Below are positions 11,862-16,005 of a stretch of DNA of 32,014 nucleotides, in pieces. The position numbers and the translations under genes were made by a program. How positions within the stretch are numbered: position 1 is the stretch's first letter; each line of letters opens with the position of its first letter. The stretch is from Oscillospiraceae bacterium (GTDB lineage: Bacteria > Bacillota > Clostridia > Oscillospirales > Ruminococcaceae). The notes beneath the pieces were generated by a model. It saw only the letters and a list, made by a program, of their open reading frames with translations. It was not told where the DNA came from and ran no database searches. The DNA is taken from NCBI GenBank assembly GCA_016281125.1, contig JAEEIA010000093.1, forward strand, positions 1 to 32,014. The letters run 5' to 3'.

Positions 11862-12252
11862 AGTAACCGAATGGAGCTGCTCCGAATGGATCATGTCAGA
11901 CGATCTGTTTTTTCACATCGGGCGCTATTGGTATCCGCTGCATATCACTCAGATCGTTGAATGTGTCGGTGAAGCGGTCAAGATCATTGTGGATATATTT
12001 TCAAAACTCGCAGAAGCAATCGGACAGAGTATTCAGAACTTTATGGATACTTTACCCAATATCTGTATTGCACGGGCCGATGACGACTCCGAGCAATACG
12101 AGATGCAGCTACGCACACGCTGGAAGCCGGTTCGTTACATCCGCGCTGCCGACCGCCGGACAGATCGCAGGCCGCCGGTGCACTGTGTCCGAAGTGCATT
12201 ATCACCGAACAGAAAGAAAGATCGACGAACAGGAAGGAAGGCAATCACATGA
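11854..12252 (+). CDS. Hypothetical protein with Arg-rich tail (132 aa)
   Basis: The ATG at 11854 lies about eight bases after GTGAGG inside the end of the previous gene. Residues about 25-65 form an amphipathic to hydrophobic helical region (ITQIVECVGEAVKIIVDIF). The last 40 residues are strongly basic (RRTDRRPP, NRKKDRRTGRK), so the protein may bind nucleic acid or membrane lipid. No family recognised. Its 3' end overlaps the DUF1492-like gene as ATGA. Confidence 0.55.
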   Translation: MNEVTEWSCSEWIMSDDLFFHIGRYWYPLHITQIVECVGEAVKIIVDIFSKLAEAIGQSIQNFMDTLPNICIARADDDSEQYEMQLRTRWKPVRYIRAADRRTDRRPPVHCVRSALSPNRKKDRRTGRKAIT

Positions 12253-12641
12253 CGGCGAAAGAGTATCTGATGCAGTACCGCGAGAGCATGGCGCGCACGC
12301 ACGAGATCACAGATCATCTGGCGGAGCTGAAGGAGGAAGCGATCCGGCTGAAGGATCACGAAGGACATTCCGCTGCGCTGGACGCAGCCGTGGCGCGGTA
12401 TGTGGATGCATGCAATGCTGCGGCCGGAGAGCTTGACCGGCTCGAAACGCTGCGGGAAGAGATCGCGGCAGCGGTCAAAGCTGTGCCGGATGCGCGCCTC
12501 AGAGAGCTGCTCCGGGAGATCTACATCGGCGGAAAGAAGATCGTGCGCATTGCCGCAGACCGCGATCAGGCCTATGAGCATGTCTGCCGTCTGCACGGGA
12601 AGGCGCTGCTGGAGCTCAGCGCCTGCATGCCGGGAAAGTAA
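12249..12641 (+). CDS. DUF1492/ArpU-like late-gene regulator
   Basis: The 130-residue protein starts MTAKEYLMQYR and ends with an EHVCRLHGKALLEL helix. The two ends match the phage DUF1492 type, whose C-terminus is a sigma-70 region 4-like HTH. In Firmicutes phages, ArpU/RinA-like regulators sit just before the terminase genes and switch on the late operon. Here it is the last gene of the left block, 0.8 kb before a late-type promoter (13453-13460), with only hicAB between. The region 4-like helices are less clear than in the best examples, so the regulatory role is inferred. Confidence 0.7.
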   Translation: MTAKEYLMQYRESMARTHEITDHLAELKEEAIRLKDHEGHSAALDAAVARYVDACNAAAGELDRLETLREEIAAAVKAVPDARLRELLREIYIGGKKIVRIAADRDQAYEHVCRLHGKALLELSACMPGK

Positions 12642-12651
12642 CAGGCAGAGA

Positions 12652-12696
12652 GAAGCCCCTCTCAAATCGCATTCTGAGCGAAATGAGAGGGGCTTC
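12652..12696. terminator. Bidirectional terminator between convergent operons
   Basis: GAAGCCCCTCTCA (12652-12664) pairs perfectly with TGAGAGGGGCTTC (12684-12696). Inside the loop TCGC (12667-12670) can pair with GCGA (12678-12681) after a two-by-two A/A internal loop. It lies between the stop of the rightward gene (12641) and the stop of leftward hicB (12700), so it can end both transcripts. No long T-run follows on either side. Confidence 0.75.
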
Positions 12697-12699
12697 CGC

Positions 12700-13104
12700 T
12701 TACGGGTTCAGGTGCAGACGCTCCTGCAATGCAGTTTGCAGAATCTGCGAGAAATTCAGATTTGCTTTTTCAGCAGCCGTGTTCAGCCATGCAGGAATGG
12801 TGCAGTTTTTGCGCACAGCTTTGCTTCCGTATTTTTCTGCATAGGCGTCAATGTCAAGCATGATGACACTGACCATCCCGTTTTCATACTCATCTGCTTT
12901 CACATTCTCAGGAGCAGAGGCTTTCGGTGCCTGTTTTCCTTCTTCGAGTTCATCGAGCACCCAGCCGGAAGCAGCATCGACTGCCTGTTCAAGGGCGTCT
13001 GCGATTGTTTCGCCTTCGGTCACACATCCGGGCAGATCGGGAACAATCACCGTATAGCCGCCCAGATCGCCGGGGTAAATGCAGACAGGATAAATATATT
13101 TCAT
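12700..13104 (-). CDS. hicB: HicB-family antitoxin
   Basis: The 134-residue product has the HicB layout: an N-terminal RNase H-like fold with YTVIVPDLPGCVTEGETIAD (about 17-36) and a C-terminal ribbon-helix-helix region (TIPAWLNTAAEKANLNFSQI, about 101-120). HicB neutralises HicA and represses the operon. I chose the ATG at 13104, eight bases after AAAGGAG, over a GTG that overlaps that site. It lies downstream of hicA, 23 bases after its stop, and is followed by the shared terminator at 12652-12696. Confidence 0.92.
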   Translation of the reverse strand: MKYIYPVCIYPGDLGGYTVIVPDLPGCVTEGETIADALEQAVDAASGWVLDELEEGKQAPKASAPENVKADEYENGMVSVIMLDIDAYAEKYGSKAVRKNCTIPAWLNTAAEKANLNFSQILQTALQERLHLNP

Positions 13105-13120
13105 ATAATACACTCCTTTC

Positions 13121-13142
13121 GCGGGGCTTATTTCAGCCCCGC
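13121..13142 (-). promoter_or_regulatory. Intercistronic hairpin between hicA and hicB
   Basis: Perfect 8-base arms (13121-13128 and 13135-13142, GCGGGGCT/AGCCCCGC) enclose a six-base loop. The hairpin covers the hicA stop codon and ends next to the hicB ribosome binding site (13112-13118). No T-run follows, so it is more likely to affect hicB translation or mRNA stability than to terminate transcription. Confidence 0.5.
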
Positions 13143-13313
13143 TTGTTTTAGGATTGAGTTTGCGGTTTTGGGATCGAGGTCTTTGCCGGTATGCATCGGA
13201 ACTGTAACTTTGCCAGGTTTGTGAGGATGTATCAGTTGAAGATGTGATCCTCTTTGTGTTTTCTCTATCCAGCCATCGGCTTTCAAGATCCTGAGCATTT
13301 CCTTTGCTGTCAT
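13128..13313 (-). CDS. hicA: HicA-family mRNA interferase toxin
   Basis: The 61-residue protein shows the HicA double-stranded-RNA-binding-like fold: MTAKEMLRILKADGW, then the active-site segment RGSHLQLIHP with catalytic His24, KVTVPMHTGKDLDPKT and a final helix. HicA cleaves mRNA when freed from HicB. The start ATG at 13313 follows AGGAGGTGAGGA; the longer open frame upstream contains the promoter and is not translated. It is the first gene of the leftward hicAB operon. The pair may stabilise lysogeny or act in phage exclusion. Confidence 0.93.
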   Translation of the reverse strand: MTAKEMLRILKADGWIEKTQRGSHLQLIHPHKPGKVTVPMHTGKDLDPKTANSILKQAGLK

Positions 13314-13332
13314 TTCCTCACCTCCTGTATAT

Positions 13333-13361
13333 ATTATAACACGCATTATGCGCATTGTCAA
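13333..13361 (-). promoter_or_regulatory. Consensus hicAB promoter with embedded palindrome
   Basis: On the minus strand, TTGACA (13356-13361) and TATAAT (13333-13338) are perfect matches with a 17-bp spacer. The spacer holds CGCAT-A-ATGCG, an 11-bp palindrome that is a likely HicB (or HicAB complex) operator. This is the strongest promoter in the window by consensus match. Confidence 0.9.
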
Positions 13362-13381
13362 GCGTTTGCATGAAAAAAACA

Positions 13382-13411
13382 TGCACAAAGATTCTGCGCC
13401 AAATTTGTGCA
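13382..13411. promoter_or_regulatory. Dyad upstream of the late promoter, possible activator site
   Basis: TGCACAAA (13382-13389) and TTTGTGCA (13404-13411) are perfect inverted 8-mers with a 14-base spacer. The centre lies about 70 bp before the predicted start of the late leader RNA, a classical distance for an activator that contacts RNA polymerase. A second, partly overlapping dyad, TGCATG-N7-CATGCA, covers 13367-13385. The DUF1492-like regulator is a plausible binder. This is inference. Confidence 0.45.
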
Positions 13412-13451
13412 GTATTTTTTGAAAATATCATGGTATATCATATTGCACCTG

Positions 13452-13460
13452 TGCTATACT
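13452..13460 (+). promoter_or_regulatory. Extended -10 promoter for the late operon
   Basis: TGCTATACT (13452-13460) is an extended -10 element (TGnTATAnT type). No good -35 is found 16-18 bp upstream, which fits a promoter that needs an activator. RNA would begin near 13467, two bases before the first helix of the structured leader. Confidence 0.65.
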
Positions 13461-13466
13461 GTAACA

Positions 13467-13581
13467 TAGGAAAAGCGACGGAGCGAGCAATGCTTTTCCG
13501 GCCGGTGCACCGGCTCTTTTTCAGCTCCGTCGGATTTGAATACCGCGAAAGCACCTGAGTGAATGGCTCGGGTGCTTTTTT
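13467..13581 (+). ncRNA. Structured late-leader RNA, possibly pseudoknotted
   Basis: Three helices can be drawn after the promoter. P1 is GGAAAAGC (13469-13476) with GCTTTTCC (13492-13499). P2 is GACGGAGC (13477-13484), lying in the loop of P1, with GCTCCGTC (13524-13531). P3 is GCCGG-TGCA-CCGGC (13501-13514). P1 and P2 interleave, so together they form an H-type pseudoknot with P3 inside, or else two alternative folds. The RNA ends in the intrinsic terminator at 13548-13581. The whole unit, about 115 bases, has no coding frame with a ribosome binding site. It could be a regulatory leader controlling read-through into the late genes, or a free small RNA. Confidence 0.6.
13548..13581 (+). terminator. 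Intrinsic terminator directly before the late operon
   Basis: AAAGCACCTGAG (13548-13559) pairs with CTCGGGTGCTTT (13567-13578) with one T-G wobble, and six T residues run from 13576 to 13581. It lies between the late promoter and the HNH gene, so late transcription must pass it. This is the same order as a lambda pR'-tR' unit. Confidence 0.8.
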
Positions 13582-13600
13582 GTCTGCCGGGGTGATTCTG

Positions 13601-13933
13601 ATGCGCAGCGTTTCGTTCCCATTCTACAAGACCAAAGCCTGGCTTGATTGCCGTGCGGCGTATCTGCGCAAGGTCAACGGGCTGTGCGAGCTGTGCCTTT
13701 CGCACGGTATTCTAAAGCCAGCCGACATTGTGCATCACAAGATTCATTTGGACGACAGGACGGCGCGCGATCCGGCAGTCGCGCTCAATTTCGATAACCT
13801 GCAAGCACTCTGCATCGAGTGCCACAATTCTGTTCACTATGGCGACGGCTCAGGCGCCAAGCAAAAACGCTATCAATATGTTGACGGAAAGCTCGTTATT
13901 CTGGGCGATACCCCCCTATCTTGCGATGTTTGA
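13601..13933 (+). CDS. HNH endonuclease of the packaging module
   Basis: The 110-residue protein has the phage HNH layout: CELC (29-32), DIVHHKIHL (42-50), an NFDNLQALCIECHNSVH block (63-79), with Cys29/32 and Cys71/74 as zinc ligands and His45/46, Asn67 and His79 in the catalytic region. HNH proteins next to terminase genes are known to assist cos cleavage. The ATG at 13601 follows GGGGTGA; a GTG at 13559 lies within the terminator and is rejected. It starts the late operon. Confidence 0.9.
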   Translation: MRSVSFPFYKTKAWLDCRAAYLRKVNGLCELCLSHGILKPADIVHHKIHLDDRTARDPAVALNFDNLQALCIECHNSVHYGDGSGAKQKRYQYVDGKLVILGDTPLSCDV

Positions 13934-13962
13934 GATACTTCCGCGGGAACGGGCTGGGGTAT
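13907..13962. other. Candidate cos region
   Basis: The 3' end of the HNH gene and the gap before terS hold several small dyads. ATACCCC (13908-13914) pairs with GGGGTAT (13956-13962), TATCT (13917-13921) with AGATA (13933-13937), and TTCC-GCG-GGAA covers 13939-13949. The six-C run at 13911-13916 is unusual for a coding end. Phages with HNH next to terminase usually have cos ends near this place. No cut position can be read from the sequence. Confidence 0.35.
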
Positions 13963-14020
13963 TGTCTTCCTCTCGCAGTCGCACGTAGACCCCTACCCAA
14001 AATGAAAGGAGGCAGCACTG

Positions 14021-14350
14021 ATGCGAAAAATTACGGAAAAATCCGAGATTGCTCGGCTGACCCGCATCTACAAGGGACTGCCGCCGAATCAGATGAAGGT
14101 GGTCGAGGGCCTGATCGTCGAGGCGGCTCGCCTGCGTGTCCGGCTGGATTATCTCTGGCAGGATTTGCAGGAGAACGGCGAGACCGAGCTGTTCACGCAG
14201 TCTGAAAAGACAGCACCCTATGAACGCGAGCGTCCGCAGAGCCGCACTTACACGGCAACAGACAAAAGCTATCAGGCGATCATCAAGCAGCTGTCTGATC
14301 TTTGCCCGCCGTCTGACAGCGGCGAGGATCCTCTTGCGGAATTCAACTGA
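14021..14350 (+). CDS. terS: Terminase small subunit
   Basis: The 109-residue protein stands directly before terL and shares its TGA with the terL ATG. It has a helical N-terminal half (LPPNQMKVVEGLIVEAARLR, a possible HTH) and a C-terminal ERPQSRTYTATDKSYQAIIK segment typical of P27-like small terminase proteins. GAAAGGAGG precedes the ATG. It would recognise the packaging site and load TerL. Identification rests on position and the C-terminal motif. Confidence 0.8.
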   Translation: MRKITEKSEIARLTRIYKGLPPNQMKVVEGLIVEAARLRVRLDYLWQDLQENGETELFTQSEKTAPYERERPQSRTYTATDKSYQAIIKQLSDLCPPSDSGEDPLAEFN

Positions 14351-16005
14351 TGGATAATTACATCTACACTTATTACCAGCGCATCTGTGACGGCTCGGAG
14401 GTTGTCGGAAAGTGGATTCGGATGCTGTATGAGCTGATCGTTCACGGCATCGAGGACGGCACCTACATCTTCGACCAGAACAAGGCGAACAAGGTGATTC
14501 GGTTCTTCGAGAAGTTTGTCCGGCACAACAAGGGCAAGCTCGCGCCGGCAGTCATCGTGCTCTCACTCTGGCAGAAAGCAATGCTGTCCGTGATTTTCGG
14601 CATTGTCGATGAAAACGGGCTGCGCGTATTCCGTGAGGTGTTCATCGTGGTCGGGCGCAAGTGCGGCAAGACACTGCTCGCATCCGGCGTGATGAGCTAT
14701 GAGGCATACGTTGACGGAGAATTCGGAAGCGAGATTTACTGCGTCGCGCCCAAGCTCGATCAGAGCGACCTTGTCTACTCGGCGTTTGAGTTTACCAAAG
14801 ACAAAACACCGGTCTTTGCGCAGATGACGAAAAAGCGCAAGACTGATCTGTATATTTCCAAGACAAACACCACGATCAAGAAGATCGCGTTTAACGAAAA
14901 GAAAGCCGACGGCTACAATCCGCAGCTGACTGTCGGGGATGAGATGTCATCATGGCCAGCAGCGCGCGGTCTGAAACAGTATGAAGTCATGGTTTCCGGC
15001 ACCGGTGCCCGCGAGGAGCCGCTGACACTCTCGATCAGCTCTGCCGGCTATGTCAACGACGGCATTTTCGATGAGCTGTTCAAGCGAGCGACAAAGTTCC
15101 TGCTCGGCAGCAGCCATGAAAAGCGGCTATTGCCGTTCATCTACATGATCGACGATGCCGACAAGTGGGACGACATCAACGAGCTGCGGAAATCCCTGCC
15201 GGGTCTTGGTGTATCGGTATCTGTGGACTTTATCCTGTCCGAGATTCAGACCGCATACGAATCTCCATCCAAAAAAGCGGAATTCCTGACGAAATACTGC
15301 AATGTCAAGCAGAATTCCGTGCAGGCGTGGCTTAAATCCGAATATGTCGCCAAAGCGATTACGGTGCCGCGCGATCTGGAGCAGTTCCGCAGCAGTTATG
15401 CGGTGCTCGGCATCGACCTGTCACAGACGACAGACCTCACGGCTGCCGTCCTGGTGATAGAGAAAAACGAAAAGCTGTATGTAATTTCGCAGTTCTGGAT
15501 GCCGACAGCGAAGATCGACGAGGCAGAACAGCGAGACGGCATCCCGTATCGGCTGTATGTCGAAAAGGGATGGCTGCGGCTTTCCGGTGATCACTTTGTT
15601 GACTACCACGATGTCTATGCGTGGTGCTGTCAGCTTGTGGAGCAGTACGAGATTCTGCCGCTGATGACCGGCTATGACCGGTACAGTTCGCAGTATCTGA
15701 TTCAGGATATGGAGCGGTACGGATTCCACACAGATGATGTCTTCCAGGGCTTTAACCTGCATCCTGCGATCCAGCAGGTAGAGGGGATGCTCGGTGATGG
15801 CAAGATCGACATCGGCGACAACGATCTGATGAAGATGCACCTGCTTGATACAGCGCTCAAGTCGGAGGGCGAGAGTCGGCGCACACGGATCGTGAAAACC
15901 GATCAGAGAAGTCACATCGACGGAACAGCAGCGCTTCTCTGCGCGATGATCGTCCGCGAGAAATACTATGATGAAATCGGCGAACAGTTAAGAAATGCGG
16001 GGTGA
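14350..16005 (+). CDS. terL: Terminase large subunit
   Basis: The 551-residue protein has an N-terminal ATPase with Walker A VGRKCGKT (101-108) and a Walker B-like LTVGDEMSSW. The C-terminal RNase H-like nuclease has acidic residues in LGIDLSQTTDLTA (near 356) and HIDGTAALL (near 524). It drives DNA into the prohead and makes the terminal cuts. Length and motifs are those of a complete TerL. Its 3' end overlaps the portal gene by 11 bases. Confidence 0.95.
   Translation: MDNYIYTYYQRICDGSEVVGKWIRMLYELIVHGIEDGTYIFDQNKANKVIRFFEKFVRHNKGKLAPAVIVLSLWQKAMLSVIFGIVDENGLRVFREVFIVVGRKCGKTLLASGVMSYEAYVDGEFGSEIYCVAPKLDQSDLVYSAFEFTKDKTPVFAQMTKKRKTDLYISKTNTTIKKIAFNEKKADGYNPQLTVGDEMSSWPAARGLKQYEVMVSGTGAREEPLTLSISSAGYVNDGIFDELFKRATKFLLGSSHEKRLLPFIYMIDDADKWDDINELRKSLPGLGVSVSVDFILSEIQTAYESPSKKAEFLTKYCNVKQNSVQAWLKSEYVAKAITVPRDLEQFRSSYAVLGIDLSQTTDLTAAVLVIEKNEKLYVISQFWMPTAKIDEAEQRDGIPYRLYVEKGWLRLSGDHFVDYHDVYAWCCQLVEQYEILPLMTGYDRYSSQYLIQDMERYGFHTDDVFQGFNLHPAIQQVEGMLGDGKIDIGDNDLMKMHLLDTALKSEGESRRTRIVKTDQRSHIDGTAALLCAMIVREKYYDEIGEQLRNAG

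Follow-up and report, generated by a model that had tools for sequence, protein, structure and literature searches.

The window analysed here, to which all coordinates refer, is the whole stretch of 32,014 nt of contig JAEEIA010000093.1 (assembly GCA_016281125.1) from an Oscillospiraceae bacterium, and the element under study is a pseudoknotted leader RNA located between a presumed late promoter and the packaging genes of what appears to be a prophage. On the plus strand, an extended -10 read from the sequence (TGCTATACT, 13452-13460) precedes two interleaved helices. The 5' strand of P1 (GGAAAAGC, 13469-13476) forms 8 bp with its 3' strand (GCTTTTCC, 13492-13499), and the 5' strand of P2 (GACGGAGC, 13477-13484), which follows that of P1 with 0 nt between them, forms 8 bp with a 3' strand that closes the pseudoknot (GCTCCGTC, 13524-13531). 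Loop L2 is 7 nt long in the window (13485-13491), hairpin P3 occupies positions 13500-13515 and the U-rich loop L3 (CTTTTTCA, 13516-13523) places a U-tract directly after P3. A hairpin and T-run resembling an intrinsic terminator (13548-13581, 12 pairs scored) end 19 nt before the inferred ATG at 13601 of the first late gene, which encodes an HNH endonuclease (13601-13933); in-frame GTG codons are also present 5' of this ATG. Next on the same strand are a small gene at the position of a terminase small subunit (14021-14350, PHROG 1066, a PHROG of unknown function) and the gene of the terminase large subunit (14350-16005), while a gene for a late-regulator-like protein of 130 amino acids, matching PHROG 36/248, lies upstream (12249-12641).

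The original prediction had described an extended -10 without a -35, interleaved helices P1 (8 bp) and P2 within 10 bases of it, a third hairpin and an intrinsic terminator just 5' of the HNH-terminase operon, and all of these features were recovered. The promoter scan listed no -35/-10 pair on the plus strand at 13452-13460, P1 begins 8 nt past the -10, and P3 has its U-run behind it. The nested fold of 13467-13585, in which the pseudoknot is ignored, was outdone by one of 200 dinucleotide shuffles (z -3.8). The terminator scan of 12500-14700 gave six sites, against 2.5 +/- 1.5 in shuffles, a difference that is weak by itself; it listed P3, while the 13548 hairpin was absent from its list and was found by RNA folding and by a dedicated hairpin scan. 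The structural observation was confirmed, and conservation and compensation among related sequences carry the case.

The DNA query 13420-13940 gave some match in nine of the 30 genomes of the genus searched, and a covariance model built on 11 sequences found 13 copies in eight of these genomes, 12 of them above 70 bits. In 396 genomes of the family, strong matches to the covariance model were confined to the same genus. The R1 matches in other genera scored 24-34 bits, and the topology search that covered those loci selected L443 alone (28.4 bits); the R2 search, with stricter filters, of 394 genomes of the order gave nothing beyond the window's own copy. Further copies came from viral contigs, and a DNA search of named phages with 13300-13960 gave no match. 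The topology-only search, in which the helix sequences were left free, was run behind 4422 extended -10 sites of the collected loci and gave 44 distinct matches, which comprised most of the known members, an unconvincing background and new members. In L553, P1 reads GAAGCAC/GTGCTTC, so that three of seven pairs are replaced with pairing retained, and new P2 sequences were found in L557, in L443 (a different genus of the same family) and in L148, L183 and L204. A promoter-plus-P1 pattern added L577, L581, L606, L608 and, doubtfully, L601, whose P2 partner falls in the P3 loop. This pattern matched six of 396 genomes of the family (G000, G004, G008 and G333 real, G348 and G392 doubtful) and four of 391 genomes of the class, none of which was convincing except the window's own copy. 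The matches listed for a first loose pattern and for a genome-contig pattern were mostly chance hairpins, and both patterns were set aside. The parsed set consists of 30 distinct related sequences, including the doubtful L601, from genomes of the host genus (15), another genus (1) and viral contigs of unknown host (14), and it contains 18 different P2 strands. The conservation on which the original prediction depended was therefore found, in genus genomes as well as in viral contigs.

Alignment A3 contains 20 distinct sequences with E values up to 0.001; together with L474 these make up the 21 members that we call close. The results of our comparison of A3 with 500 shuffles, which is inflated by the relatedness of the sequences, showed that paired cells increased from 83.2% in shuffles to 93.1%, that cells changed on both sides increased from 14.4 to 40 and that the covariation score increased from 0.114 to 0.299, none of these values being reached by a shuffle. 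The number of pairs with double changes (6 versus 4.6, reached by 59 of 500 shuffles) and the number of further pair types (16 versus 14.4, reached by 82 of 500) did not differ significantly. Sliding the partners by one to three columns reduced pairing to 42-56%. Two pairs of P2 showed double changes (GC 12/AU 8 and AU 16/GC 3/GU 1), as did four of the five pairs of P3, and these counts lean towards P2 and P3 because A3 was fitted to these helices and not to P1. No double change was found in P1 on A3 because its core is invariant; its seventh pair, aligned from the loop end, is G-C in 11, A-U in five and unpaired in four of the 20 sequences. A P2 of at least 7 bp was formed by 25 of the 30 sequences with their own strands, and also by 36% of swapped pairs and 11% of shuffles; swapped pairs pass this lenient test because the P2 strands share a CGGA core. 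The covariation proposed as a check of P1 and P2 was consequently observed for P2, and for P3, while P1 is nearly invariant but has three of its seven pairs replaced, still paired, in L553.

The RNA also has a fixed position behind the promoter. The extended -10 is located 15-16 nt ahead of the end of the P1 5' strand in all 21 close members, and P1 begins about 8-10 nt past the -10 across members. A U-run after P3 is common among members, not constant, and an extra short hairpin is inserted in L2, within the P1 loop, in L269 and L474.

The gene preceding this module encodes a protein like the sigma-region-4-type late regulators RinA, ArpU and Ltr, as judged from its matches. The window copy matched PHROG 36 ('transcriptional regulator', E 8e-10) and PHROG 248 ('transcriptional activator', E 0.007) and no Pfam family, while its homologues matched sigma-70 region 4, one of them above the Pfam cut-off, and DUF1492, for which the hits in L606 and L608 passed the cut-off. 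Among solved structures the family matched SigF best (E 0.024), and one homologue touched a Q-like PHROG faintly (E 0.07). The regulator gene lies upstream in 20 of the 21 close members, L260 being cut off by the contig end, and in eight of nine divergent members: L553 and L557 were retrieved through it, L577, L601, L606, L608, L148 and, weakly, L443 matched PHROG 36, and L581 has an open reading frame (ORF) at this position that gave no match. Conversely, 20 regulator loci were found in the 30 genomes of the genus at E values up to 1e-20, of which 12 carry the AAAAGCGAC-type pseudoknot and two more (L553 and L557) the divergent type. A small late-regulator gene thus stands directly 5' of the packaging promoter, with hicAB intervening in the window.

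We compared the 3' ends of regulator genes with other gene ends in viral loci encoding regulator relatives (the best 80 of 92), 14 of which carry the pseudoknot and 59 of which were non-redundant with enough downstream sequence. The strict test required an extended -10 within -25 to +60 of the stop codon and a terminator starting 10-120 nt after it, and the control ends were those of mechanically called ORFs of at least 70 amino acids in the same loci. This order was present at 27 of the 59 regulator ends, whereas the control ends gave 2 of 328 and the shuffles 0 of 1180 (Fisher p 6e-23, a value that, like the next, ignores remaining relatedness and takes promoters as sequence matches rather than mapped starts). 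When the pseudoknot loci and L458 were removed, it was present at 18 of 45 regulator ends versus 0 of 240 other ends and 1 of 900 shuffles (Fisher p 1e-16); L458 fails the strict test, and its inclusion changes 18/45 to 18/46. A looser test, run without a control, was passed by 36 of 59. Of eight named phages, five have a hairpin that passed the terminator threshold and, ahead of it, a -10-like site, which is not extended in every case; phiRM10, phi1605 and Javan191 did not pass, and one phage, TPDSL, has its hairpin overlapping the annotated start of the HNH gene. The five include phi11 and phi13 (L544 and L545), in which a -10-like site and then a terminator-like hairpin lie in the gap between rinA and terS and in that between ltr and the next gene, respectively, though both have been studied as simple activation. 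A lambda-like order is therefore common in sequence behind these regulators, whether the pseudoknot is there or not, and Firmicute phages with sigma-4-like late regulators repeat the succession of regulator, promoter, terminator and packaging genes familiar from lambda. Of the antitermination checkpoint that the original prediction had read into this layout, the order promoter, structured RNA, terminator and late genes is real, and its promoter-terminator part is the one that recurs; the gating of elongation is the part that we hold with less assurance, as discussed below.

The genes downstream of the RNA vary. They are an HNH gene and then terminase in the window and in L288, fused terminase genes in L194, terminase small subunits of two other families (L148, L601 and L606; L094) and portal genes in L216 and L315. 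The pseudoknot was not found in 89 viral loci related to the terminase large subunit (TerL) or to HNH, of which 45 reach at least 1.1 kb upstream (36 of 80 TerL, 9 of 9 HNH) and 44 TerL loci are too short. TerL and HNH relatives were dropped as carriers of the RNA, the window being the sole match at E < 0.01 among 91 sources. The unrelated operons downstream, together with the TerL and HNH relatives in which the RNA was not seen, indicate that the element belongs to the promoter module and not to the genes that follow, and that it is not tied to HNH or TerL.

In the late switch of lambda, which depends on Q, the regulator gene is followed by the late promoter pR', the terminator tR' and the late genes. 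The module described here resembles it in having a regulator gene upstream, a promoter without a clear -35 and a terminator ahead of the late operon, and differs in that no sequence link of the regulator to Q was established, the regulator matching PHROG 36/248 and sigma region 4, in that the distance from promoter to terminator is mostly far shorter than at tR', and in that the leader of this group is occupied by a pseudoknot. The EAR element is a structured leader RNA that acts in cis on elongation in Bacillus exopolysaccharide operons; it is likewise a structured Firmicute leader, but not of phage origin. The put RNA of HK022 is, in the parts of its description available, about 70 nt long, lies just past its promoter (putL), acts on polymerase without protein and contains a triplex (PMC9378689). 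Our element shares the length of about 70 nt, the promoter-proximal place and the folding into helices, and differs in having a P1/P2 pseudoknot with P3 inside it instead of the two stem-loops described for put; put also serves early genes of an Escherichia coli phage with a proven action on polymerase, whose beta' zinc-binding domain it binds, whereas the present RNA is known from sequence. We speculate that the U-run after P3 could lie beside the A-run of P1 and form a put-like triplex. Members with five A-U pairs in P1 had a mean U-run of 5.2 versus 4.3 (Mann-Whitney p 0.055, with values read by eye and no correction for relatedness), which does not establish it; L553 has no P1 A-run.

The account of phage late promoters in PMC13123087, as far as its text was available, describes those of RinA, ArpU and LtrC as controlled at initiation through upstream repeats, which sets them apart from our reading; Ltr activates its promoter in a P23 reporter of phi13, and neither the term 'antitermin' nor a leader RNA appears in that description. 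The cabRNA of staphylococcal phages is a structured RNA from the terminase region, inside terS/terL, that is sensed by CBASS (PMC10686824), and it differs from our element in not being a promoter-proximal leader. Rfam gave no family at the gathering score in the window or in five divergent loci. A permissive Rfam search gave eight matches to 13340-13700, far below threshold, and none of the three alignments inspected follows P1/P2; these candidates were rejected. Within the open-access literature (subscription papers being outside this scope), no description of the leader or of antitermination by RinA or Ltr was found. The statement of the original prediction that no described family has this layout holds against Rfam and this literature, and the element is a conserved phage RNA that Rfam does not contain, well defined in both structure and location.

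The reading that we favour, and to which we give nearly an even chance, is a leader RNA that acts in cis at the late promoter and serves as a gate for elongation into the packaging operon. Transcription would start from the extended -10 at 13452, aided by the sigma-4-like regulator encoded upstream, and the first 70 nt or so of the late RNA would fold into the three-helix pseudoknot. Polymerase would then pass P3 with its U-run and afterwards the 13548-13581 terminator, and the folded RNA, either alone as put does or with the regulator or another factor, would most likely alter the elongation complex and cause read-through. The 19 nt between the terminator and the HNH start leave no room for another promoter, which means that the late transcript has to cross the terminator. 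In the window the early module seems to stop short of the promoter, with the convergent hicAB genes, a long hairpin between the regulator gene and hicAB (12652-12696, a candidate early-transcript end) and an inverted repeat followed by a T-run (TGCACAAA-N14-TTTGTGCA, 13382-13411, a candidate operator or terminator). The terminator would therefore mainly meet the late transcript, which favours an elongation checkpoint. The broader proposal that late control by RinA, ArpU and Ltr in Firmicutes is an antitermination checkpoint, and that here a pseudoknot, protein-assisted or autonomous and perhaps stabilised by a triplex, carries the read-through signal as put does but at a late promoter, can be advanced tentatively and seems to us clearly less probable. 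Comparison shows the structure of the RNA, its constant position relative to the promoter, its independence of the genes downstream and the succession of promoter and terminator behind many such regulators. Promoter use, termination and read-through caused by the pseudoknot are what we infer, and whether the pseudoknot would act on RNA polymerase or the regulator would antiterminate is a choice within that inference. If read-through is the controlled step, the accepted account of how packaging genes are switched on needs an added layer; as judged from sequence, prophages of rumen bacteria look as though they open their packaging transcript with a conserved knotted RNA that would be a gate of late-gene control.

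Several results weigh against this gating. P2 cannot close until polymerase is beyond P3, so the pseudoknot is unable to prevent termination at P3 itself; it could act on polymerase ahead of the next terminator, as put RNA does in the available part of PMC9378689. Five of the 21 close members (L265, L099, L294, L269 and L474) have no scored second hairpin, and several second hairpins among the close members have poor U-tracts. Behind P3, only a weak U-run is present in L093, L094 and the divergent L443, L577 and L581. The strict promoter-then-terminator test was failed by 32 of the 59 regulator loci, and the many phages that share the layout without the pseudoknot show that it is not essential to the arrangement. 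An Ltr-dependent reporter of phi13 that ended 50 bp past the predicted start still needed Ltr and the upstream repeats, in the section of PMC13123087 available; since, by our own estimate of the start, this reporter cut the terminator U-tract, control of initiation may suffice.

The strongest rival, rather unlikely in our estimate, takes the regulator as a plain activator, as the activation of initiation by Ltr in phi13 would have it (PMC13123087, in part), and the pseudoknot as a shield of the 5' end that protects late mRNA from an RNase J-type exonuclease and from pyrophosphohydrolase, the terminator serving for attenuation. The onset of P1 so soon after the -10 puts it few nucleotides from any start, and the pseudoknot is retained in members that have no scored second hairpin, both of which suit a shield. 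A shield leaves unexplained why phages lacking the pseudoknot repeatedly have a terminator between the promoter and the late genes, and also why P3 is often followed by a U-run.

Less probable again is a third reading, in which the terminator is an insulator. It would stop stray transcription, either early read-through or transcription across hicAB, a strong late promoter would overrun it, and the pseudoknot would have another role. Terminators are common at module borders, and phages with the layout and without the pseudoknot exist; an insulator is expected, however, 5' of the late promoter rather than between promoter and first gene, and in the window the two hairpins named above already precede the promoter.

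That the terminated RNA of about 60-115 nt is made for its own sake, as a small RNA acting in trans or as a decoy, we regard as improbable. The short pR' transcript of lambda is such a discrete RNA, and the compact, stable fold, the conserved P1 sequence and the terminator-like sites at both possible ends agree with the idea. Against it, the RNA heads packaging or portal genes in the members whose surroundings were examined, and the P2 and P3 sequences change freely. Finally, an operator palindrome AAAAGC-N-GCTTTT in the DNA with incidental RNA pairing, to which the near-invariance of the P1 core might point, is very improbable, as the hairpin insertions of L269 and L474 lengthen the spacer from about 15 to about 30 nt, which an RNA tolerates and a fixed-spacing operator would not, and as P2 and P3 compensate and L553 exchanges P1 pairs without losing the pairing.

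The sequence upstream of the promoter contains further candidate sites. Inverted repeats resembling that at 13382-13411 were seen by eye in L093-L096, and the segment 13425-13445 (ATATCATGGTATATCATATTG), in which ATATCAT is repeated and which may be a regulator site, is conserved in the same loci. Repeats were looked at in the window, where ATATCAT occurs twice, and in L148, which has clear TTGGCACAC repeats. Tandem TTGGCACACT direct repeats resembling the reported Ltr binding sites are located immediately 5' of the promoter in L148, L183 and L204. The divergent members L148, L443, L577, L581, L601 and L608 have TATCATA between the -10 and P1, possibly a DNA-level signal in the first transcribed bases.

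On the minus strand, between the regulator gene and the promoter, lie a gene for a HicB-like antitoxin, convergent with the regulator gene (12700-13113), and a HicA toxin ORF (13128-13388) whose domain spans residues 28-85 and whose true start is probably further in; a consensus -35/-10 on this strand is found within the HicA ORF (13361-13333). The hicAB genes are in this place, on the opposite strand, in the window, L094 and L269, and follow the regulator also in L575; those of L094, L269 and L575 were confirmed by tblastn, which did not find hicAB in L458, L459, L292 and L290, the latter two corresponding to L460 and L466. In L290, L292, L293, L554-L556, L567 and L569 the regulator is followed by sequence other than hicAB. 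The same genome has another late-regulator gene, more distant than the first (L568, G000:C76:42444-42872), which is followed by an extended -10 and by a leader of a different kind. The host genome gave at least 150 dockerin matches, which suggest a cellulosome-forming Ruminococcus. Between the pseudoknot region and the first gene, L265, L097, L105, L110, L315 and L294 carry a GGGGGAGGG..CCCC stretch, and several of them have a CTCATTGCTC..TCTCTGAG stretch there as well.
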